Source of the DNA: Lachnospiraceae bacterium
GTDB lineage: Bacteria; Bacillota; Clostridia; Lachnospirales; Lachnospiraceae
Length of the DNA: 42,801 nt
NCBI GenBank assembly: GCA_017552985.1
Contig: JAFZNO010000049.1
Coordinates: 1 to 42,801, forward strand
Reading direction: 5' to 3'
Below are positions 4,368 through 36,732 of this stretch, piece by piece (the first letter of the stretch is position 1; every line of letters begins with the position of its first letter). The translations under genes and the position numbers were made by a program. The notes beneath the pieces are model-generated. The model made no database searches and was not told the origin of the DNA. It worked only from the letters and a program-made list of their open reading frames with translations.

Positions 4368-7307
4368 ATGAAAAAATCAACGAAAAGGATATGGAGCCGC
4401 GTGTTTACGTTAGTGCTCTGCACGGCAATGATCCTGGGCATGACGTTGCAGTATTGCCCGATTCAGGCACGCGCAGCGGGGGAAGCGCGCGTGGCAGGAT
4501 GTTCCCTTACGGTCAGCGAGGGCGCCATCGGAATGAATCTGTTCCTTAGCGGGCTGAGTGACGGGAATAATTATGTGCTTAAGGTGGACGGGGTTTCCCA
4601 TCCATTGGAAAAGCAAAGTAACGGAACCTACAAGGCTTCTCATTACGTAACTCCAAAGAATATCGTGAAGCAACTTTCCATTTCGTTATATTCAGGAACG
4701 CAGAAAATTTCGCTGGCGAATTCGACGGCGACGAATGGTACCCTTACGTATTCGGTGAAGGAATATCTCACCAGTTTGGAAGACAGAAACGACGATATGG
4801 GACGACTTGCCAAGGCGCTGGATGATTACGGCACTTGTGCCTATTATTATTTTTCAGGGACGGAAGACATTCCCGTTGAAATCCCGAGCATGGATCTTTC
4901 TTCCTTTGCCATCCAAAAGGGCGGAGAAGTTCCCAATGGCATTACCTATGCCGGAAGTTGTCTGGTGCTGGGCAATACCATCGGCATCAGACACTATTTC
5001 GACGTGACGGATCAGATCACGTCCCTTGTTATGGTGGCGGAAGGCCAGGAGCTGGAAATCAAGGCGGACCCGGAAAAAGCAAACCGCCGTTACGTTGAAA
5101 TTGATAACATTCGCGCGTGGGACATTGATCACGCGTATACTTTGGTTGTGGTCGCAAACAGAAGAAAATCTACGCTTAAGTACAGCGTTCTTACCTATGC
5201 AAACGTGGCGACAAAGGCAAAGACGGATGCACGGCTGGTTAAATTGGTAAGAAGCATTTATTGGTACAAAAATGCTTTCCAGGAATGCTATGACACGCAG
5301 GAGATCACAACCCCTTACGTTACGTACAAGATGTTTAACGCAAAGGGAGACGGCGTGACGGATGATTATGATGCTATTGTCCGTACGCATGAATATGCAA
5401 ATAAGTATCACCTTCCCGTAAAGGCTGATCCCGGCGCGGTTTATTACGTGGGTCACATGAATACGGATAATCCCAGCGGCGCAGTGATTCAGACGGATAC
5501 GGATTGGGGCGACGCAACGTTCCTGGTGGATGACACGCACATACCAATGTATGACACGGAAAGAGAAGTGAAGAAAGCGGACGGCACGATCGAGATCGTT
5601 GTTGACAGGATCGTTGACGGCGCATCCTGCTCGCTGTTTACGGTGAAGTCTTACGTGCCGTCCGGATATAAATGGATGAATACTTCCCTCTGGTGGTATG
5701 AGAAGGGAGACGGAACCTGGGCCTGGCGCTCTGAAAAAAAGGATGGCGATCAGCATCTGTACTTAGGTCTTGATCCCAATCTTGATCCATATCCGGAACA
5801 CAGCCTGGGCTCCGGAAGAAATTATAACGGAACGCTGGCGGCGGCCCAAAAGAACAAAGAGTTTACGAAAGACACGACGGTGTTTGGAGCGCCTGGGGAG
5901 TTCAAGGAAGATGCCCTGTACGTATTAAAGACGGCTTCCGCAAAGCGTTGGGGACGTAACGGATCATCCACCGCCTCGTCAACTCTTCGCGATCAGGAAG
6001 AGGTTGTCATTGTCAAAACGACTGGAGAGATAGATCCGTCGACGCCGTTGCAATGGGATTGGAAAGAGATCAGCACGATCCTAAAATATCCCATAGATCA
6101 GACGACGCTTACGGTGAATGGCGGCAAGTTCATTACGGAAGTGAATTATCTAAATGCAAAGTCCTACGTGCAGAGGGGAATCACCGTTGCCCGTTCCAAT
6201 ACTCAGTTGGTTGGCATTCAGCATTATCTCACCGGGGAAGACAAAATGTTCACGGATGCAAGCGCATACGTGGATGAAGATACCCAGAAAACCAAATATC
6301 ACGCAAGACTGGGTGCTCCGTACCATGGGTTCTTTTGCGTGAATTACTGCGCATACGTTACGCTGAGGGATTGTATTTTCTCGAATCACCTGCGCGTATA
6401 CAGCTATGGCGGTGACGAGAATTCCACTGCCCCTTATGATTTTTATGCGGAATATGCCGCAGTGATCACGTTGGATCATTGCATCTGCGCAGCAGACAAG
6501 GATGATCTTACGGGACCTGCGGATCGGACGGGCATCATGGACGAATCCAGATGGGGAACGACGGGAACCAATTTCTGTAAGGAACTGATCGTGCAGAATG
6601 GTTGCCGGCTCAACCGGATTGACGCACACATGGGTACTTACAACGTGACCGTGAAGGATTCCACCATCGGATATCTGGGAATTGACGTCATTGGGTTTGG
6701 CGAAATGAATCTTGAAAGGGTAACCAGCTACGGGGATTTCTTTGTGAATCTGCGCAGGGATTTCGGAAGCTACTGGAATGGTGACGTAAACATTACCGAC
6801 TGTACGTGGAAATTACCTGCGAAGAAGTATTCCCCCATGTTGATTTTCACGAATTATCAGCCAAATCCGAAGACTTCTTTCGGGTATGACGTGATCGAAG
6901 AAGATGGCGTAAAGTATTACTGTACCATGCCGACGAACGTGAACGTGAACGGGTTGACCATAGATGCAAGCAGAGTGACGGACAATGCATTTACCGGCAC
7001 CAGCGGAGTACAAATCTTTTCATGTCCCATCATGAATCTGCAAGCGGTAGTGAATGACAGTTATTTTAAGAATCCCGCCGTGTACAAGTATCCGCTTAGA
7101 ATTACAAAGAAGGTTTCCGTCAGGAACTTAAAGATTCTAATGAATCCCGCATTGGTTGGCAATACTTTCGTGGGCGTTGCGCTCAAGCAGGTAGATAAGG
7201 AGCAACACAGTGAGAGATTCTTTGACAATACGATCTTTGATTACAATAAAGAAAAAGATCTGACAATCGAGGCATCGAGTCCGTGGGTTGATGACGTGAT
7301 CTGGTAG
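4368..7307 (+). CDS. Large secreted protein: shared N-terminal module plus right-handed beta-helix domain
   Basis: The 979-residue protein starts after AAGGGGAG. A lysine-rich n-region and hydrophobic core give a signal peptide of about 36 residues, ending near QARAAG. Residues about 40-310 form a module shared with the next two large genes (for example GCSLTVSEGAIGMNLFLSG, DDYGTCAYYYFSG and LVRSIYWYKNAF). From about 320 comes a pectate lyase-3-like start (FNAKGDGVTDDYDAI), then many short beta-strand turns as in right-handed beta-helix polysaccharide lyases and hydrolases. No catalytic residue is assigned. It is probably a secreted or surface glycan-active protein. The next gene starts only 40 bp downstream, so they are likely co-transcribed. 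Confidence 0.75.
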   Translation: MKKSTKRIWSRVFTLVLCTAMILGMTLQYCPIQARAAGEARVAGCSLTVSEGAIGMNLFLSGLSDGNNYVLKVDGVSHPLEKQSNGTYKASHYVTPKNIVKQLSISLYSGTQKISLANSTATNGTLTYSVKEYLTSLEDRNDDMGRLAKALDDYGTCAYYYFSGTEDIPVEIPSMDLSSFAIQKGGEVPNGITYAGSCLVLGNTIGIRHYFDVTDQITSLVMVAEGQELEIKADPEKANRRYVEIDNIRAWDIDHAYTLVVVANRRKSTLKYSVLTYANVATKAKTDARLVKLVRSIYWYKNAFQECYDTQEITTPYVTYKMFNAKGDGVTDDYDAIVRTHEYANKYHLPVKADPGAVYYVGHMNTDNPSGAVIQTDTDWGDATFLVDDTHIPMYDTEREVKKADGTIEIVVDRIVDGASCSLFTVKSYVPSGYKWMNTSLWWYEKGDGTWAWRSEKKDGDQHLYLGLDPNLDPYPEHSLGSGRNYNGTLAAAQKNKEFTKDTTVFGAPGEFKEDALYVLKTASAKRWGRNGSSTASSTLRDQEEVVIVKTTGEIDPSTPLQWDWKEISTILKYPIDQTTLTVNGGKFITEVNYLNAKSYVQRGITVARSNTQLVGIQHYLTGEDKMFTDASAYVDEDTQKTKYHARLGAPYHGFFCVNYCAYVTLRDCIFSNHLRVYSYGGDENSTAPYDFYAEYAAVITLDHCICAADKDDLTGPADRTGIMDESRWGTTGTNFCKELIVQNGCRLNRIDAHMGTYNVTVKDSTIGYLGIDVIGFGEMNLERVTSYGDFFVNLRRDFGSYWNGDVNITDCTWKLPAKKYSPMLIFTNYQPNPKTSFGYDVIEEDGVKYYCTMPTNVNVNGLTIDASRVTDNAFTGTSGVQIFSCPIMNLQAVVNDSYFKNPAVYKYPLRITKKVSVRNLKILMNPALVGNTFVGVALKQVDKEQHSERFFDNTIFDYNKEKDLTIEASSPWVDDVIW

Positions 7308-7347
7308 CAAGGGGCAGTACGTTTCGACGTTTCGCGAGGGGTGGAAA

Positions 7348-10300
7348 ATGAAAAAGAAATCAAAAAAGACATGGAATCGCATGCTGGCTTTCGTGCTGTG
7401 CACGATCATGGTTTGCGGCATGACGTTGCAGCATTGGACGGTTGTCGTAAGTGCTGCGGGAGACGTCCGCCTGTCGGGATGCTCCCTGACGGTTACGGAA
7501 GGCGCGCTGGGAATGAATCTGTTCCTCACGGGTTTAACGGACGCGCAGGCGGCTAACTGCAAGCTTCAGGTAGACGGGACGATGCATGCGTTGGAAAAAC
7601 AGACGGACGGTACGTATAAGGCGACGCATTTTGTGACGGCAAGGGACGTATTAAAGAAGCTTACCATTTCTCTGTATTCCGGAACCACGCAGATCCCGCT
7701 GACGAATTCAGGAGCCGTGAATGGCACGTATTCCTATTCAGTTAAGGATTATCTTGCCGGGCTGGAAGGGAATGACGATGCGATGGGACGCCTTGCCAAG
7801 GCAATCGATGATTACGGCACTTGTGCGTATTATTACTTTACCGGCGCGGATTCAATTCCCGTGGAAATCAAGGATGCCGATCTGTCAAGCTATGCAATGG
7901 TTAAGTCAGGAAGTCTTCCCGCCGCCATTCAATATGCCGGGAGCTGTCTTGTTCTTAGTGATACCATTGCGATCCGGCATTATTTCAGCGTGTTGGCGAC
8001 GCTGAATTCCTATGAGCTGCTTGTCGACGGTAAGACGGTGGAGATCCAGGTCGATGAGAGTCGCGTGAACGAATATAACGTACCCCTTTGTTACGTTGAA
8101 ATTCCTAATATCCGTGCGTGGGACATTGACCATGCATATACGTTTAAGTCAACGGCCGATGGGCTGACGCAAACGATGAAGTACAGCGTTCTTTCCTATG
8201 CGCAGGTTGCCACGGCGCAGAATAAGGATCAGCTTCTCTGCAAGCTGGTAAAGAGTATTTACTGGTATAAGGTTGCCTTTCTGGAATGTATAGAAGGCAT
8301 GCATGGCACGGGAACGGATACCTCCGATTACATGAACAGCAAATATACGATCGACATGCCCACGGCAGTGATCGTCGTGCCTTCAAGCCCAACCGCAGAG
8401 GAACAGTATTCCGCTAAGCTTTTGCAGAAGTACGTGGAAGAGGAGGATGGCTACAAGCCGGAGATCATTTCCGACGCGGTCCGTCAGGGTACGAGAGGCT
8501 TTGAGATTTCCGTTGGAAACACGAACCGCCCTCACGGCACGGCGGCGTATTCGTCCAATGACAGCTACGCGATCAAATCCTATAATGGAGGAATTGCGAT
8601 CACGGGCATCGGACAGCTTGGACTGATGCACGGCGCGATGCGCTTTTTGGAGGCTTGCGGCGGATATTATTATCTGTCCTGGAATGATCTGTACGTCACG
8701 AACCAAAAGCACTTTAAGTATGAGCCCATGGGTGTTGACATTGATTATGAGAGGGCATTCCTGTTCACTGACATAGACGTTTGCTTCTCAAGCATCAATC
8801 CTGCAGGCGATCTTACGGATCCCTATTATGGAAAGGGAAGACCGAGCGGCTATGAGTATCCCCGCACGGGGCGTCTCTTCTCACTTGCATTAGGGTTTAA
8901 CGGTTTTTACGCGGACACCTACTGCCTGCCGAAATCAGAAGCCGGCAGGGAGACGTGGTATCTTACGGCAAATAAATCCAGTCAATATGGTGATGAAACG
9001 CCTATTTCAGGTCTTGCGGCAGGGCAGGCACATACGCTGGGTGCTGAATTCTTCCTTGCTGACAATTATTTTGATAAGCATCCGGAATGGTTCGCGGCAT
9101 ATGCCTGGTATGAGTCGGGGGAGCTTCAAAAACCCGATTCACAGAGAAAAAGAACCAAGGAACAGCTTTGTCCGTACATGCTCTTGCATGATCCGGAAGC
9201 TTATAACATTGTCCTTCAGCATTGCCGGGACATGATTGCGAACAGCTATGATCCCAATGCTCCCATCCAGATCATTTCCATTTCCAAAAACGATGGTAAC
9301 AAGCTTTGCACCTGTTCGTATTGCCTGAAAGACAGGGCGGCACATGGGGACAGTGGCGGCTTGTACGAAGCCGTGGAGTACGTACAGCTTTTGAATAAGG
9401 TATCGCAGGATCTGCATGAAAATGGGGCATATCCGAATTTGTATATCGACATGCTGGCCTATGAATGGACGGTGGAAGCGCCTCCTTCCGGCATTACCTG
9501 CGATGACCACGTAATCGTCCGCTATGCGCCGATCAGAAGGTGCTACGGAGATTATCTGAATGCGACCCCCAACGGGAAAGGACACGTAACCAATGCCAAA
9601 TACTATCAGGAGCTTGTGAATTGGACCAAGATCTGCAAGCACGTATGGATCTGGGATTACAATTCGAATTTTACGACCACCGTAGCTCCTTATGCGAACG
9701 TGGACGTCATGCAGCATGACATTAAGCTGTATAAGCAGTTGGGCGTGGAAGGCGTATACTTACAGAGTAATTCAAGGCACCTGGAGTCCAATTCGGAGTT
9801 TGGAGACGTCCGGAATTACATTGAAGGCAGAATGCTTCAGGATCCCTCAAGAAATTACGAGGAAGAGCTTGCGTTTATCACGGACGCGTTGTACGGAAAA
9901 GCGGGCATCTACGTGCGTGAATATATGAAGCATATGGAAAAACAGGCGAGGAACCATCATACGATCGTGAATCACAGGGATGACGTCTACATGTATGACA
10001 GGACTCTTTATAACGTTTATGCAGGCGTGCACTGGTGGAATGAAATGAAAGTGATAGATGGCCGGATGCCGGATGAAGAGATCGGATACTGCGAAGGTCT
10101 TTGGAATGAGATCAACAAAATTGCCGCAGGAGAATCGGCAGCCGTTCAAAAGCGCCTCGCTCGCTTGGAAATTGGCTGGCGTTTGGTGAAATCCACGTTG
10201 AACGTGTATGAATTCAATGATCCGTCAACTTACAAACAGCAAAACGAGCTTTTGATCAAGGACATGAAGGCGGCCGGCGTCACGTATTTTTCCGCCATTC

Positions 10301-22070: not shown

Positions 22071-22099
22071 AGAAAACGAGGCGGAGTTATTCCGCCTCG
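22071..22099 (-). terminator. Terminator of the WYL regulator gene
   Basis: CGAGGCGGA (22077-22085) pairs with TCCGCCTCG (22091-22099). On the minus strand the hairpin runs into a T-rich tail. The stop codon of the WYL gene lies in the loop. Confidence 0.7.
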
Positions 22100-23073
22100 T
22101 ATGCGTTTAAAGCCCTGCGATAGAAAGCTGCCATGCTGTCGCGGCTTTCCTTGGGAGTGAGGATGACTGCATCCTTGCCAAAGCGGCTAAAGTAATCTTC
22201 GAGAGGTTGCTTAGGCCAGTGAAAGAAGTAAACGTTGCCTTCTTTCCTTAGGACTTCCGGCCGGTTTTTCACGATCACGCGGAATTTCCGGATGCCCTGA
22301 TCCGTGAGCCTGACGGAGATTTCCACGTTCTTGGATGCGGACTGGGGATTGCGCATGGCAATCTCACGGAGTTCGCGAAGAGCCTTTTCATCTGGGCGGA
22401 AGACATCCTGCGTCACGTAGAGGGCCCTGAGGCGGGAGATGCGGAACGTTCTGGTGAAGCGCGAGTTCCGGTCCTGGCAGAGCAGGTAGTTGCATTGCTC
22501 TTCCTTAGAGGGGGCGATCACGTAGGGCTTTACGGTAAAGACCAGCTTGGGCGCACTTGTGGAAGTGAACGTGACGAGCTGTTTTTTTTGAATGGCGAGA
22601 TCCAGGGCTTCGAAGGTTTCGCGGAAGATGATGCGTTCGCGCTGGCTTCGCGAGATGGACAGGTAGGAAATCAACAGGTCATTTAGGTATTGAGACAGGG
22701 AGGCATCGCCGAGGAAGTTGTTTTCAATGGTATTCATGACGTCAAGGCTGCGGCCGCTGAAGGTCAGGGTGATGGCTTGGTCGCGCTTTGCAACCTGCTC
22801 CGCGTTTTTGGCATAGGTTCTTAATATTTTTGCGGCGATGGACTTGGCGTCGCGGGCGGACACGGAAGGGAAGGCTGCCAGATCGGCAAGGATCTCGTCG
22901 CGCAGCCGTTCTTTTCTTTCACGATATTCATCAAAATAATTGACGATCAGTTCCTTGAGGAACGCGTTTAAGTTCACGGAACCGTCTTTTTTCTCAAAAT
23001 CAAATAATTCAGCGTCGTTTACCAGGCGCGATCTCACGTCTTCCGGTACGTAAATTTTATACTTCTCCGTCAT
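22087..23073 (-). CDS. WYL-domain regulator with N-terminal ribbon-helix-helix-like modules
   Basis: The protein has 328 residues. Residues about 3-50 (YKIYVPEDVRSRLVNDAELF and following helices) and about 100-145 (ITLTFSGRSLDVMNTIENNF, SQYLNDLLISYL) each look like a ribbon-helix-helix or related strand-helix-helix unit. A WYL domain follows at about 155-240, with the eponymous motif changed to CNYLLCQD. A C-terminal domain (about 245-320; ISVRLTDQGIRKFRVIVKNR) resembles the WYL C-terminal extension. WYL proteins bind nucleic acids and act as ligand-controlled regulators, and RHH-WYL proteins accompany Cas13d. AGGAG precedes the ATG. It is divergent from the Ro-like gene and its RNA leader, so it may control them. 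Confidence 0.8.
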   Translation of the reverse strand: MTEKYKIYVPEDVRSRLVNDAELFDFEKKDGSVNLNAFLKELIVNYFDEYRERKERLRDEILADLAAFPSVSARDAKSIAAKILRTYAKNAEQVAKRDQAITLTFSGRSLDVMNTIENNFLGDASLSQYLNDLLISYLSISRSQRERIIFRETFEALDLAIQKKQLVTFTSTSAPKLVFTVKPYVIAPSKEEQCNYLLCQDRNSRFTRTFRISRLRALYVTQDVFRPDEKALRELREIAMRNPQSASKNVEISVRLTDQGIRKFRVIVKNRPEVLRKEGNVYFFHWPKQPLEDYFSRFGKDAVILTPKESRDSMAAFYRRALNAYEAE

Positions 23074-23172: not shown

Positions 23173-23201
23173 TTTTCATATCCAAATTTATGAGCTATGA
23201 T
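23173..23201 (+). promoter_or_regulatory. Promoter of the Y RNA-like leader and Ro-like gene
   Basis: TTTTCA (23173-23178) and TATGAT (23196-23201) are separated by 17 bases. Transcription would begin near 23208, just before the first stem of the structured RNA. Confidence 0.5.
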
Positions 23202-23207
23202 ATAACC

Positions 23208-23405
23208 ATAAAAGCACCAACAGCAATCGAAAACTCACCTGTCCAGTGAAAACGGTGCTTTGTGACGTAACAACGTAAGCAAGAAAGACACGCACAGCAA
23301 TTCATTTGGGAAATGGTAACAATTTGGCTCTGCGTCAAAGGTTGCAGGTTCGAATCCTGCTGAAAATGCTGAGGATAAGGCGAACGTGTCTTGTACTTGC
23401 AAAAG
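23208..23405 (+). ncRNA. Y RNA-like (YrlA-type) RNA with a tRNA-like cloverleaf
   Basis: The 5' part is a hairpin: AAAGCACC (23211-23218) with GGTGCTTT (23254-23261), and TCAC/GTGA within. The main part is one long stem: GCAAG 23279-23283 with CTTGC 23396-23400, AAGACACG 23285-23292 with CGTGTCTT 23385-23392, CAGCA 23295-23299 with TGCTG 23367-23371, and TTCA 23301-23304 with TGAA 23361-23364. It carries a cloverleaf at its tip. That tip has a D-arm (TTG/CAA, loop GGAAATGGTAA) and an anticodon-like arm (stem 23323-23327/23335-23339, 7-nt loop CTCTGCG). It also has a perfect T-arm (GCAGG, loop TTCGAAT, CCTGC; 23344-23360). There is no CCA and no free acceptor end. tRNA mimicry beside a Ro-family gene is the mark of bacterial Y RNAs. 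No terminator separates it from the gene, so it may be processed from the mRNA leader. Confidence 0.65.
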
Positions 23406-23431
23406 AAATGCCGGACAAGGAGGGCAAGAGG

Positions 23432-24910
23432 ATGTTTTTGGAAGCATTAAAGAAAAAAGAGAATATGACTTATACGGAAAACGGCGCAAGTACGTATAGG
23501 AGCACCACGTCTTCTTGCCTGGACCTGTTCGCAACCATCGGCGCGCTGCGCACGGCGAGCGAGGAGGATATTATATCCCGCTTTATAACTGCATATGCAG
23601 AGGACGCTGACCTGGCATTGAAAACTTTGTTTTTTGCAAGGGACGTTCGCGGCGGACTTGGCGAGCGCCGCGTTTTTAAGACAATCCTTGCATGGCTTGC
23701 CGTAAATGAGCCTGACAGCGTGCGCAAGAACATTGCGTACGTAGGTGAGTTTGGCCGATATGACGACTTATTGGCACTGCTTGACACGCCTTGCGAAGCG
23801 GATATGCTTGCGTACGTGAAAGCCGTGCTTGAGGATGACGTGCGGAGCATGAAAAAGGGCGGTGAAACGTCCCTGCTTGCAAAGTGGCTGCCTTCCGTAA
23901 ACGCAAGCAATCGCCAGACGGTGAAAAACGCGAAGAAGATCGCGCGCTTTCTGGGCATGAATGACGCGCAGTACCGAAAGATGCTTTCGGAGCTCCGCGC
24001 TTACGTATGCATTATCGAGAATCACTTGCGCAAGAAGGATTACACCTTTGAATATGAAAAGCAGCCTTCAAAGGCATTGTATAAGTACCGTAAGGCGTTC
24101 CTTCGCAATGATGAGGTACGTTATGGTGCGTTCCTTGATAAGGCAGAAAAGAATCCCGGTTTATTGAACGCGTCGACGCTCACGCCTTATGACGTGGTGG
24201 CGTCCGTGATCAACAAAGCCATGAGAGAAGAGAGCATTGACGCCAAGGAGCGCCGCTCCATGGACGTAACGTGGAAGTCGCTGGATAATTACGTTGGCGA
24301 TAAGAACGCGCTGGCCGTGGTGGATGGTTCCGGCTCGATGTATTGGGGCGGAAACGGTTACCTGCCTGCAGCGGTGGCACAGTCACTGGGAATTTACTTT
24401 GCAGAGCACGTGAAGGGTGCTTTCCACGGCCACTTCATCACGTTCTCCGAGAATCCACGCCTCGTTGAGGTGAGGGGACGGGACATCGTGGATAAGGTGC
24501 GTTATTGCATGAACTTTAACGAATGGACAAACACGGATCTGATGAAGACCTTCCGGTTACTCCTGGATACGGCGGTGGAGAACCACGTGAGTCAGAAGGA
24601 AATGCCTTCGAAGCTGTACGTGATCTCAGACATGGAATTTGACGCCGTGAGCGGTGACGGAAAGCTGACGAATTTTGAACAGGCAAAGGCAGAATTCGCG
24701 GCGAAAGGATATCGCCTTCCCCAGGTCGTTTTTTGGAACGTGGCAAGCCGTAACAGGCAGCAACCAGTGACAAAAAACGAGCAGGGCGTGACGCTGGTAT
24801 CCGGCTGCAGCCCGCAGATATTCCAGATGTTGTCGCGGGGAGCGCTTGACCCGTATTCGTTTATGATGGAGGTGTTGACGGCAAAGAGATATGAGAAAAT
24901 AAGTGCATAA
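23432..24910 (+). CDS. Ro60-like RNA-binding protein (TROVE-like/DUF2828 helical domain plus vWA domain)
   Basis: The start at 23432 follows AAGGAGGG (23418-23425); the frame is open further up but that part runs through the structured RNA. The protein has 492 residues. Residues about 12-285 form a helical-repeat region with TROVE/DUF2828 features (SSCLDLFATIGALR, TLFFARDVRGGLGERRVFK, YVGEFGRYDDLLAL, LAKWLPSVNAS, PSKALYKYRKAFLR). A von Willebrand A domain follows with an intact MIDAS: D298-G-S300-G-S302, Thr near 368 and D400. Ro60 and bacterial Rsr bind Y RNAs and misfolded RNA through such a ring plus vWA. The gene stands alone between its RNA leader and a terminator. Whether it is best named TROVE or DUF2828 needs a profile search; the two are related. 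Confidence 0.8.
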   Translation: MFLEALKKKENMTYTENGASTYRSTTSSCLDLFATIGALRTASEEDIISRFITAYAEDADLALKTLFFARDVRGGLGERRVFKTILAWLAVNEPDSVRKNIAYVGEFGRYDDLLALLDTPCEADMLAYVKAVLEDDVRSMKKGGETSLLAKWLPSVNASNRQTVKNAKKIARFLGMNDAQYRKMLSELRAYVCIIENHLRKKDYTFEYEKQPSKALYKYRKAFLRNDEVRYGAFLDKAEKNPGLLNASTLTPYDVVASVINKAMREESIDAKERRSMDVTWKSLDNYVGDKNALAVVDGSGSMYWGGNGYLPAAVAQSLGIYFAEHVKGAFHGHFITFSENPRLVEVRGRDIVDKVRYCMNFNEWTNTDLMKTFRLLLDTAVENHVSQKEMPSKLYVISDMEFDAVSGDGKLTNFEQAKAEFAAKGYRLPQVVFWNVASRNRQQPVTKNEQGVTLVSGCSPQIFQMLSRGALDPYSFMMEVLTAKRYEKISA

Positions 24911-25012: not shown

Positions 25013-25047
25013 AGAGAGTGGTAGAGTTTTTGCAAAGGAGCGTTATC

Positions 25048-26109
25048 ATGGCTGACAAAAAGATCAAATTTCACTTGCCCGGACTAAGCTTTAATTTCCC
25101 GCTGAACATGTTGTTTGTTGACATGTTAAAGCAAAAACCGGAGTTTTTCCGGGAAGGAGTGGAGATCGGTTCCTTCTTCGGCGAGTTTCCGACCTCTCTG
25201 TGGAATGGAGGAAGATTTTCCTTTGGCGTGCAGTGCCCGGAGGACATGGTGCGCTACGTGGTAAAGAGCATTAACGACCTTGGGATCCCCGTGAGATATA
25301 CCTACACGAACCCCATCATTTATGAGGAGGACCTGGCAGATCCCTTCTGTAATTTTTGCATGAAGGTGGGCGACAATGGCATGAACGAGGTCATGATCCT
25401 GTCTCCCATTTTGGAAAAATACATTCGCGAAACGTATCCCAGCTACAAGCACAACAGTTCTACCTGCAAGGAGATCAAGAACATTGACCGCCTGAATGAG
25501 GAACTGAAGAAGGATTATTATCTTGTGGTTTTGGATCAGAACCTGAACCGGGATTTTGATTTTATCGAGAAGATCGAGGACAAGGACCGGATGGAGCTTT
25601 TGGTGAATTCCTGCTGTGGTCCGAACTGCACGAGGCGTGCCGAGCATTACAGGGTGATCTCCGCGCAGCAGAGAGTGACGTATGCCAATAAGGCCATTCG
25701 TCAGGGCGAGGATCCCCAGAAGGTGATCGCAGGGCTTCCAGACTACGTGAAGGAGCGTTTGCCCAAGGAGGCGAAGGAGGGATTCTTCCCTACGGACAAC
25801 GTGGGAAGACCCGTGATCCCGCTGCCGAAGTGGCATTGTGAGTACGGCGAGTATAATTCCCCGTTTACGGTACAGAACAATCTGAACTACATTCCGGCGA
25901 AAGACGTTTGGGAGAAGTACGTGCCCATGGGATTCCGTAATTTTAAGCTGGAAGGCCGTACGAGTAACATTTTTTCCATTGTTGAGGATTACGTAAATTA
26001 CATGTGCCTTCCCGAGGCGAAGGATGAGGCGAGATTTACGCTTCTTACGCATCTCAAGGGACAAGGCATCATCGGCGTGAACCGCACTTGGTGGGTAAAG
26101 CCTAAGTAA
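25048..26109 (+). CDS. U32-like TIM-barrel protein with a cysteine cluster
   Basis: The start at 25048 (MADKKIKFHLPG) follows AAAGGAGC and gives 353 residues. The C-terminal 'FRNFKLEGR' resembles the U32 family signature K-[IL]-E-G-R, and the strand-helix pattern is consistent with a barrel. Cysteines cluster at NSCCGPNCTRRAEHY and in KWHCEYGEY, with another pair at FCNFCMK. In UbiU/UbiV, RlhA and TrhP relatives such cysteines hold an Fe-S cluster used in hydroxylation. Whether four ligands are correctly placed here cannot be judged by eye. Its target is unknown. It has its own promoter and lies 32 bp before gdpP. Confidence 0.55.
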   Translation: MADKKIKFHLPGLSFNFPLNMLFVDMLKQKPEFFREGVEIGSFFGEFPTSLWNGGRFSFGVQCPEDMVRYVVKSINDLGIPVRYTYTNPIIYEEDLADPFCNFCMKVGDNGMNEVMILSPILEKYIRETYPSYKHNSSTCKEIKNIDRLNEELKKDYYLVVLDQNLNRDFDFIEKIEDKDRMELLVNSCCGPNCTRRAEHYRVISAQQRVTYANKAIRQGEDPQKVIAGLPDYVKERLPKEAKEGFFPTDNVGRPVIPLPKWHCEYGEYNSPFTVQNNLNYIPAKDVWEKYVPMGFRNFKLEGRTSNIFSIVEDYVNYMCLPEAKDEARFTLLTHLKGQGIIGVNRTWWVKPK

Positions 26110-26141: not shown

Positions 26142-28193
26142 ATGAAGAAACGCATGAAACTTAAGGGGAGAATTAAGTTTTTCACGCATTTTAGCATATA
26201 TCTTGGAGCTTTGCTCGCAGCGGTGGACGTTGCCGTGTTTCTGTTGGACGTGCGTTCCGGCTTGCTCCTTTTGGGCTATACGATCTTTTATTTTGGCGTG
26301 ATCATTCCCTTATATTTTTACAATAAACCGATCATCATGAATGAGCTGGTGAGCTTCGCCACGGAGTACGGACAGATCCAGAGAAAGCTTCTCCGGGACC
26401 TGGACGTGCCCTATGCCCTCTTGGATGACGGCGGCAGGGTGATCTGGACGAATGCCGCGTTTGAGAACGTGGTGCATCAGCCCAAGGGCTATAATAAGTC
26501 CATTACGTCTTTGTTCCCGACCATCACCAGGGACAAGCTCCCGGATGATTCGGGATTGGATGAGGCACAGTATGAGTTGCACTACGAGGAGTGTGAGTAT
26601 CTTGCCAAGTTCCGCAAGATTTCCCTCCATGAGATGGCGCAGCACAGTGACATTATTGACATTGAGGGCTATGAAGGGTATTTGATCGCCGTGTATCTCT
26701 TTGATGAGACGGCGCTTCGCATTGCGTTGCAGGAGTTGGATGACCAAAGTCTTGCAGCCGGCATGATCTATCTGGATAACTACGAGGAAGCGCTGGAGAG
26801 CGTGGAAGAGGTTAGAAGATCCCTCCTCACGGCGCTGATCGACCGAAAGATCAACAAGTACATTTCTTCCCTGGACGGCATCAGCAAGAAGCTGGAGAAG
26901 GATAAGTATTTGATCATTTTGAGAAAGAAGGCCATCACGCAGCTTCAGGAATCCCGGTTTGACCTGTTGGAAGAGGTTAAGACCGTGAACATTGGCAATG
27001 AGATGGCGGTGACCATCAGTATCGGCATTGGATTAAACGGTCTTTCCTATGCCCAGAATTATGAGTTCTGCCGTAACGCCATCGACCTTGCCCTTGGCCG
27101 CGGCGGCGACCAGGCCGTGATCAAGACGCCGGACAGCATTACGTATTACGGCGGTAAGAGCCAGCAGGTGGAAAAGAATACGCGCGTGAAGGCAAGAGTT
27201 AAGGCACACGCCCTTAGGGAAATCATCACGGCGAAGGACCGCGTGCTTGTCATGGGCCATCGCATGCCGGACGTGGACAGTTTTGGCTCGGCAGTCGGCA
27301 TTTACCGGATCGCAAGGGCGCTTGACCGAAAGGCAAACATTGTTTTGACAGAGTCTACCAGCGCGATCCAGCCTTTGGTGGATCTCTTTAAGAATAGCCC
27401 GGAATATGACGAGGACATGATCATCACGGGTTCGCAGGCGCAGGAGCTTGCGGAGAGTAATACCGTGCTTGTCGTTGTGGACGTCAACAAGCCCTCGATC
27501 ACGGAATGTCCGGAGCTTCTTAGGTCCTGCAAATCCGTGGTGGTGCTCGATCATCACCGTGCGGGCGCGGAGACGATCGAGAACGCAACCCTTTCCTACG
27601 TGGAGCCTTATGCGTCATCGGCGTGTGAAATGGTTTCCGAAGTGCTTCAGTACATTTCCGACGGCATCAAGATCCGGCCGGAGGAAGCGGACAGCATGTA
27701 TTCCGGCATTATGGTGGATACCAATAATTTCGTTACTAAGACGGGCGTTCGTACCTTTGAGGCGGCTGCGTACCTGAGAAGGAGCGGCGCAGACGTGACC
27801 AGAGTGCGTAAGCTCTTTAGAGAGGATGCATTGGAATATAAGGCTCGCGCGGATGCGGTCAGCCAGGCGGAGATCTATCGTCAGGCGTTTGCCATTTCCG
27901 TTTGTACCGCGGAGGATCTGCCTAGTCCTACCGTGATTGGCGCGCAGGCGGCCAACGAGCTTTTGAACATCAAGGGCGTGAAGGCAAGCTTCGTGCTTAC
28001 GGATTATCAAGGTAAGATCTACGTCAGTGCCCGTTCCATTGATGAGGTGAACGTGCAGATCATCATGGAACGCATGGGCGGCGGCGGACACATGACGGTT
28101 GCGGCCTGTCAGATGGAAGGCACCGGGCTGGTTGAGGCCATTGGCATTTTGAAGGGAACGCTGGATGAGATGCTGGACGGCGGAGAGATTTAA
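26142..28193 (+). CDS. gdpP: Cyclic-di-AMP phosphodiesterase
   Basis: The 683-residue protein is close to the usual 650-680. Two N-terminal transmembrane helices (about 10-60) precede a PAS-like domain (about 75-170, LLDDGGRVIWTNAAFENV). A degenerate GGDEF domain (about 175-300) follows, then the DHH domain, with GHRMPDVDSFGSAVG and VVVLDHHRAG. The DHHA1 domain ends in GGGGHMTVAACQM. It hydrolyses c-di-AMP to 5'-pApA and so sets potassium and cell-wall signalling; this is relevant to the TrkA-like protein upstream, since RCK proteins can bind c-di-AMP. GGGAGGA precedes the ATG. It starts the conserved gdpP-rplI-dnaB run. Confidence 0.95.
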   Translation: MKKRMKLKGRIKFFTHFSIYLGALLAAVDVAVFLLDVRSGLLLLGYTIFYFGVIIPLYFYNKPIIMNELVSFATEYGQIQRKLLRDLDVPYALLDDGGRVIWTNAAFENVVHQPKGYNKSITSLFPTITRDKLPDDSGLDEAQYELHYEECEYLAKFRKISLHEMAQHSDIIDIEGYEGYLIAVYLFDETALRIALQELDDQSLAAGMIYLDNYEEALESVEEVRRSLLTALIDRKINKYISSLDGISKKLEKDKYLIILRKKAITQLQESRFDLLEEVKTVNIGNEMAVTISIGIGLNGLSYAQNYEFCRNAIDLALGRGGDQAVIKTPDSITYYGGKSQQVEKNTRVKARVKAHALREIITAKDRVLVMGHRMPDVDSFGSAVGIYRIARALDRKANIVLTESTSAIQPLVDLFKNSPEYDEDMIITGSQAQELAESNTVLVVVDVNKPSITECPELLRSCKSVVVLDHHRAGAETIENATLSYVEPYASSACEMVSEVLQYISDGIKIRPEEADSMYSGIMVDTNNFVTKTGVRTFEAAAYLRRSGADVTRVRKLFREDALEYKARADAVSQAEIYRQAFAISVCTAEDLPSPTVIGAQAANELLNIKGVKASFVLTDYQGKIYVSARSIDEVNVQIIMERMGGGGHMTVAACQMEGTGLVEAIGILKGTLDEMLDGGEI

Positions 28194-36513: not shown

Positions 36514-36732
36514 AGGGGAGGCGTCTCCGCACAAACGCAGCCACGCCGAGCTCGCTCGGGCGTGGCTGCGTTTGTGCGGAGACGTGTCCTGCGAAGCAGG
36601 ACTGGGGGCGATATGAGCAAAACGAAGAGCGCCGCAGGCGCGGGTTTTGCGAATATCGTTGAATCCTCCCCTTACCCTGCTTGAGACGTGTCCTGCGAAG
36701 CAGGACTTTCAACATGTCCCGCTCCGCAGGAC
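36514..36732. repeat. Cluster of G+C-rich nested hairpins with repeated GTCCTGC-GAA-GCAGGAC units
   Basis: AGGGGAGG (36514-36521) can pair with CCTCCCCT (36665-36672), enclosing three hairpins. The first is a perfect 26-bp stem (36522-36547 with 36559-36584). The second is GTCCTGC (36586-36592) with GCAGGAC (36596-36602). The third is a nested stem, CGATAT/ATATCG, GCAAAAC/GTTTTGC and GCGCC/GGCGC (36609-36658). A second copy of the small hairpin, inside a 25-bp direct repeat, lies at 36690-36706, and a third with one mismatch at 36716-36732. No coding region is credible on either strand. It may be a structured RNA, a REP-like element or a small mobile repeat. Confidence 0.65.

Follow-up and report, generated by a model that had tools for sequence, protein, structure and literature searches.

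The window, a 42,801-nucleotide stretch from a Lachnospiraceae bacterium, contains a gene for a DUF2828 protein, and the 5' leader of this gene holds two small units in tandem, each followed by U. Our analysis indicates that this gut bacterium probably encodes a Ro-like ribonucleoprotein here, made up of a DUF2828 protein with a predicted Ro60 fold and two small partner RNAs from the leader of its gene. The locus is laid out as follows.

23211-23262/23263, plus strand: unit 1, short, with the stem AAAGCAC/GTGCTTT (23211-23217 with 23255-23261); its order is AAAGCAC, spacer CA, ACAGCAA (23220-23226), a 28-nt middle, GTGCTTT and the end G-T.
23285-23393/23394, plus strand: unit 2, tRNA-like, with the stem AAGACAC/GTGTCTT (23285-23291 with 23386-23392); its order is AAGACAC, spacer GC, ACAGCAA (23294-23300), an 85-nt insert, GTGTCTT and the end G-T.
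23344-23360, plus strand: T-arm GCAGG-TTCGAAT-CCTGC, inside unit 2.
23432-24910, plus strand: Ro-like protein of 492 aa with DUF2828 and DUF7788 (vWA) domains (Pfam E=5e-32 and 7e-44).

A sequence-only reading had placed a single 198-nt RNA at 23208-23405; this span covers both units, and two tandem units take the place of the one RNA. The stem AGACACG/CGTGTCT directly upstream of the Ro-like gene and the perfect T-arm in its 5' region are present as that reading described. The outer block of its extended stem, GCAAG/CTTGC, is not retained in L032 and L033, where the inner CAGCA/TGCTG meets TGCCG instead; this inner pairing would also consume ACAGCAA, the most conserved motif. Its cloverleaf held in part: the T-arm is clear but the D-arm and acceptor are weak, the Rfam tRNA model (RF00005) gave unit 2 21.5 bits, below the gathering score of 29, and ARAGORN made no tRNA call for it. 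Sister units of L004 and L037 do pass as tRNA. That reading overlooked unit 1, the multi-unit arrays, the form with a hairpin inside a tRNA and the resemblance to Class I RNA of dictyostelids. Folding of 23200-23410, proposed as a check, gave an energy within the range of chance (z -1.24), as did the two units by themselves (z -0.94 and -1.41). Folding energy alone is of no use here, and the window RNAs stand above chance because the units recur in relatives: unit 1 is retained in L003, L032 and L033, and first units with the same stem occur in L004, L005 and L006. AARNNNCNNACAGCAA occurs six times in the own genome, and a scan of the other four places showed no unit.

The Ro-like protein matches the PHROG 850 RNA-binding protein (E=2e-131). 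An AlphaFold model based on 82 sequences (pLDDT 91.7, pTM 0.90) superseded a poor model from 5 sequences (pLDDT 59.5); the set of 82 was made without L116, L122 and L142 (near copies among the 80 viral loci described below), L033 and the partial L037. Ro60 is the best match of the predicted structure, at about 12% identity in the structure alignment, and the predicted fold combines a helical-repeat ring with a vWA domain. Residues D298, S300, S302, T368 and D400, which we take to be the vWA metal-site residues, are invariant in the 82 sequences. No TROVE match was found with Pfam in this protein or anywhere in its own genome. By tblastn, the protein has matches in 681 of 50,697 phage records and 4 of 72,556 plasmids, and the phage matches are mostly annotated as hypothetical or RNA-binding, among the matches listed. 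Matches were also present in 36 of 196 near-relative genomes, including the own genome and some fragments, and the DUF7788 profile in 8 of 398 genomes of the phylum, the own one included. A viral scan with the window protein alone gave no match; with an alignment, a relative was encoded in 594 of the best 600 stretches. Earlier reports already describe Ro-like proteins in phages (PMC7824862, PMC7765460, PMC12282133), and mycobacteriophage annotation already contains them.

Both units follow one pattern, which was scanned as a 7-bp stem (at most one G-U pair), a 2-nt spacer, the core [AGT]CAGCNA and a G after the stem. The pattern was fixed on bacterial and named-phage loci. The bacterial and plasmid set comprised 44 loci, among them the window locus, some that are nearly identical to each other and two truncated by the end of a contig, after removal of the duplicates L001, L033 and L041 and the gene fragments L045 and L047. 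The viral set comprised the best 80 IMG/VR loci among those found by protein alone, some of them near copies of one another. The 44 loci gave 92 sense and 4 antisense units (1.6 per mononucleotide shuffle), with a unit in 40 loci. Since the motif was first noticed in the bacterial set, the viral set was the deciding test. A looser form of the pattern, run first, gave 227 sense and 42 antisense units (35.4 per shuffle) in the 80 viral loci, and the stricter form gave 181 sense and 5 antisense units (6.3 per dinucleotide shuffle), with a unit in 58 loci. In the TROVE loci of the phylum (n=9, about 1.5-kb flanks) no clear unit was found. Elsewhere in the window, at 36527-36579, a perfect inverted repeat (CGCACAA...TTGTGCG) with a GCAGC-type core was picked on both strands and is regarded as a chance match.

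The closing stems covary, which bears on whether the units might be tRNA genes in decay, or hairpins formed by chance, in front of a gene to which they have no relation. In the viral set, without selection by stem, 149 of 287 sense-strand ACAGCAA sites have a 7-bp partner; when stems were exchanged between ACAGCAA sites, the mean fell to 9.3 (maximum 14 in 20 trials), and identical stems placed randomly within the locus gave 7 to 13 matches. Each stem position shows 4 to 6 pair types among 98 distinct viral and 41 distinct bacterial stems, all preselected for complementarity. We also aligned 11 units hand-picked for similarity to unit 2. In the terminal stem and T-arm 100% of the cells pair (slid controls, 40-58%), and 3 of 12 pairs carry double-sided changes. 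Every T-arm cell with letters pairs, one row being gapped at two pairs, and one pair shows a GC to AU exchange in 4 sequences. Among 500 shuffles of this alignment, none reached three of the five measures; the count of pairs with double changes was reached by 29 and the count of pair types by 483. Compensatory changes in the upstream regions of homologues, which the sequence-only reading had asked for, are found by both the swap test and the alignment. The tRNA scores of unit 2, which lie under the thresholds, and the ordinary fold energies would suit decay or chance, but the strand bias, the swap test and the compensatory changes in independent loci do not, and the swap test disfavours this explanation for the family; we consider it hardly credible.

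The units lie upstream of the gene in 39 of the 44 bacterial loci, and in the window no terminator-like site was found between the Ro-like gene and the divergent gene on its other side.

22087-23073, minus strand: divergent gene of 328 aa with a weak WYL/WCX match (WYL E=4.4e-4, 20.6 bits, cut-off 21.8), a candidate regulator.
23173-23201, plus strand: sigma70-like promoter TTTTCA-17-TATGAT (9 of 12 matches), predicted to start RNA at about 23207-23211, close to where unit 1 begins.

Such an arrangement would also suit a cis-acting leader, in which the stem-ACAGCAA units are sites where the Ro-like protein represses its own mRNA and no free RNA is made. Against this, 51 of the 181 viral-set units lie downstream of the gene. 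In Vibrio V05, Xanthomonas XbC2 and Vibrio D479, units identified by eye sit among annotated tRNA genes far from the gene; for those of Cronobacter S13 the distance is about 10 kb. Some units lie inside complete tRNA-like genes, and an array with 9 units in L008 exceeds the needs of autoregulation. Repression in cis is rather unlikely. In the phages examined, the units adjoin the gene or sit among tRNA genes; the units, their covarying stems and their tie to DUF2828 genes extend across bacteria and phages.

The units occur in four builds. In the short build, as in unit 1, the insert is at most 45 nt long and AU-rich (26% GC); it accounts for 89 of 158 N-type viral units, and a T-loop is found in none of these 89 and in 30 of the other 69. 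In the second build, a tRNA-like domain in normal order stands within the stem, as in window unit 2 and L004:1307-1414, which contains an ARAGORN tRNA-Arg call. In the third, the tRNA-like domain is permuted, with the T-arm and 3' acceptor strand followed by the 5' acceptor strand and D-arm; clear cases are present in L016, L062, L063 and others, and L063:6127-6263 (CTCCCCG-ACCA...CGGGGAG) has an internal CCA. A topology heuristic applied to 125 units with inserts of at least 50 nt, on both strands of the viral, bacterial and named-phage loci, classed 25 as permuted (12 viral and 13 other, a few doubtful by eye), 15 as direct, 21 as unclear and 64 as without a T-arm. In the fourth build, the stem and motif form a hairpin with a 3-5 nt loop that replaces the anticodon arm of a tRNA-like RNA, and a T-loop lies within about 100 nt downstream in 22 of 23 viral cases. 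Several of these RNAs carry over-long tRNA annotations in phages, listed here by locus; in each, by eye, the hairpin seems to replace the anticodon arm.

L063:5869-5989 and 5999-6111; L054:6863-6972: over-long phage 'tRNA' annotations.
L082:7027-7142, 7159-7281 and 7309-7432: over-long phage 'tRNA' annotations.
L081:3295-3416; L064:8184-8305: over-long phage 'tRNA' annotations.

These annotations span 110-124 nt, and some of their cores differ, for example ACTGCAA or ACCGCAA, and fall outside the scan count. A constant handle combined with varying opening points in the tRNA part suggests that what matters is the assembled shape rather than the order along the sequence.

Permuted or intron-holding tRNAs of archaea and algae offer a model for another explanation, RtcB-dependent splicing, in which the stem-ACAGCAA element is excised from tRNA-like precursors or circularises them. 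The replacement of the anticodon arm in unpermuted tRNA-like genes, the permuted tRNAs held by other units (one with the internal CCA) and the presence of RtcB in the flanks of 14 of the 44 bacterial loci (three at 26-32% identity) are in its favour. The short units have no tRNA part, and the ACAGCAA loop is the most conserved part of the element, unlike a discarded intron. In examples judged by eye and not by computation, no anticodon arm was seen to re-form after removal, and a search of the 80 viral loci, with flanks of up to 4 kb, gave no RtcB. Splicing appears quite improbable as the role of the element.

The neighbourhood is shared in part by relatives. WYL-like homologues (62-95% identity) lie on the strand opposite the DUF2828 gene in L003, L032, L033, L004, L005, L006 and L034, where L003 and L033 are the same contig; the homologue in L028 is weak. 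L004, L006 and L034 hold the WYL-like gene, units, DUF2828 gene and RtcB together. Among 17 named phages, 2 have RtcB in the flanks. The promoter stretch is identical in L032 and L033, and the bases further upstream differ. Directly after the Ro-like gene, a 363-aa gene (25018-26109) without a Pfam match is retained in L003, L032 and L033; it shows faint similarity (25% identity) to part of viral locus L102. As to a prophage origin of the window, the neighbours look chromosomal, with methionyl-tRNA synthetase-, GdpP- and DnaB-like genes. Near other members of the family, a group I intron match (49.9 bits, gathering 50) lies shortly downstream of the Ro-like gene at L084:5522-5711, and a tmRNA match (140.6 bits) lies upstream of the array of Enterococcus phage EFDG1 (L051:1104-1454).

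Ro binds the stem of Y RNA. In the ribonucleoprotein that we favour, we infer that the units are transcribed and trimmed at their ends and that the 7-bp stem closing each RNA, followed by NN-ACAGCAA, would be the handle bound by the protein. The variable middle, an AU-rich loop in unit 1 and a tRNA-like domain in unit 2, would be the working end, which might gate the ring or recruit tRNA enzymes or nucleases. The locus would most likely serve RNA repair or quality control. The RtcB neighbours of some relatives and the WYL-like neighbour hint at inducible RNA repair, in which the protein encoded by the divergent WYL-like gene perhaps drives production on demand. For phages, the presence of units among tRNA genes hints at a role in protecting tRNAs, or in sorting them, in the course of infection. 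For Listeria phage CKA15, PMC12282133 reports high transcription of three noncoding regions in the 2 kb upstream of the DUF2828 gene and proposes Y RNAs there; it also mentions Y RNAs already reported in mycobacteriophages. Several results weigh against the ribonucleoprotein. One of the three CKA15 regions (26,236-26,727, about L055:2480-2971) holds no unit, and the scan places none close to the gene in 22 of the 80 viral and 4 of the 44 bacterial loci. The TROVE control is limited to its 9 loci and short flanks. The promoter match is near chance (2 sites against 1.1 expected in shuffles). RtcB, missing from the viral loci, does not adjoin the gene in the window either, the two RtcB loci of the own genome being on other contigs. 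If the ribonucleoprotein exists as proposed, a large family of phage and bacterial DUF2828 proteins gains a specific candidate RNA partner with a testable binding handle, and several over-long phage 'tRNA' genes are explained. It would also unite YrlA-like permuted tRNA mimics with the Class I RNAs of amoebae in a single scheme.

The idea of a Y-like RNA beside a DUF2828 rather than a TROVE gene is supported by the predicted Ro60 fold and the compensatory changes in homologues. The label 'YrlA-type' fared less well. A covariance search with YrlA (RF02553) gave no match in the window stretch at E up to 10, and no YrlA match reached the gathering score in the searches made. The permuted sister unit L016:1230-1339 matches the full-length YrlA model, but this best score is 45.6 bits against a gathering score of 69, and the shared module of 7-bp stem and NNACAGCAA is absent from the YrlA consensus as matched with L016. 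YrlA as such was rejected by score. Sub-threshold scores are not rare: 7 of 14 control genomes also give YrlA matches that fall short of the cut-off, so that a 42-bit match elsewhere in the own genome, outside the window (C137:51074-51165, L067), is probably a tRNA-like cross-match.

An Rfam scan of L016 also gave Dicty_Class_I_RNA (RF01414) at 25.8 bits, below the gathering score of 41.5, with the consensus GaUcuCCUUACAGCAA...GagAuCUG. At that cut-off none of 19 records had a match, and the best matches were 25-27 bits. In 18 phage and plasmid records, 11 of 42 matches (E<=10) lay within 1.5 kb of a DUF2828 gene in sense, where 0.55 were expected, as did 7 of the best 12; both matches in Listeria AG20 and all three in VpaE1 are units. 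Searched alone, RF01414 found units of L055 and L062. Other results speak against the link. The best match was not near the gene in 9 of 15 records, although some of these are units elsewhere by eye; and four control phages without a protein profile match gave 9 weak matches, one of which (E=0.0024) lies inside a T4 coding gene. With E<=10 over all families, the model found none of 26 short units in 7 viral loci; it missed the window's own units, and at E up to 5 over all families it found the L016 unit only and missed those of L055, L062 and L063. RF01414 was rejected as the sole detector because of the T4 coding match and the missed short and window units. As this evidence is mixed, the basis of the Class I link is the anatomy in common, supported in part by the model. 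In 88 distinct short viral units the stem starts N-A-G (A 46%, A 76%, G 93%) and the end is C-T-[TA]-G (C 93%, T 77%, T 57% or A 32%, the G set by the scan); the next base is T in 48%, and these units are mostly one pair longer than Class I. The motif core CAGC.A is fixed by the scan itself, and its free positions are A in 94-95%.

We give even chances to a wider view, in which DUF2828 Ro-like proteins and stem-NNACAGCAA RNAs form a single RNA-protein family shared by bacteria, phages and social amoebae. Class I RNA would then be the eukaryotic branch, with a Ro-like DUF2828 protein in Dictyostelium as its unseen binder, and in prokaryotes the same handle would be fused to tRNA in several topologies, including circular permutation. 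In the open-access literature searched we found no paper naming the ACAGCAA family or linking Class I RNA to phages or Ro. The binding partner of Class I RNAs becomes a directly testable question.

Compared with known systems, the DUF2828 protein has its full-length predicted fold in common with Ro60/Rsr (TROVE and vWA), but it lacks the TROVE sequence profile match. Like YrlA, the tRNA-like units have a terminal stem bearing a tRNA-like domain, which in window unit 2 has a clear T-arm and a weak D-arm and acceptor, and the family adjoins the gene of a Ro-fold protein, in some cases with RtcB neighbours. Unlike YrlA, its partner is DUF2828 and not Rsr/TROVE, its handle is stem-NNACAGCAA, several units often occur per locus, and there are forms without a tRNA part and forms in which the handle replaces the anticodon arm. 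Permuted tRNA genes occur in archaea and algae. In these, as in the permuted units, the 3' half precedes the 5' half with a short linker between the acceptor strands, whereas the joint in the units is the ACAGCAA handle and not a splice site known to be cut. PMC7919456 describes Class I RNAs as about 60 nt long, with a short stem in which compensatory changes occur, a motif of 11 nt adjoining its 5' strand, a variable middle and the conserved ends AAG and CUGU, and states that none was found outside dictyostelids. The short units share with them a terminal 6-7 bp stem that shows compensatory changes, ACAGCAA next to the 5' strand of this stem, an AU-rich variable middle, a length of about 50-65 nt and occurrence in several copies, and their ends resemble AAG...CUGU. 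The spacer from stem to ACAGCAA is 2 nt in the units but 3 nt in the Rfam consensus, and most units have one extra outer pair before G-U (end C-U-U/A-G-U), whereas CUGU, the Class I ending, is found on units of Listeria AG20, Cronobacter S13 and Vibrio V05. The DUSE promoter of Class I RNA is a eukaryotic feature that bacteria would not be expected to have. The known binder of Class I RNA is the RRM protein Rnp1A, and the candidate partner of the units is the DUF2828 protein.
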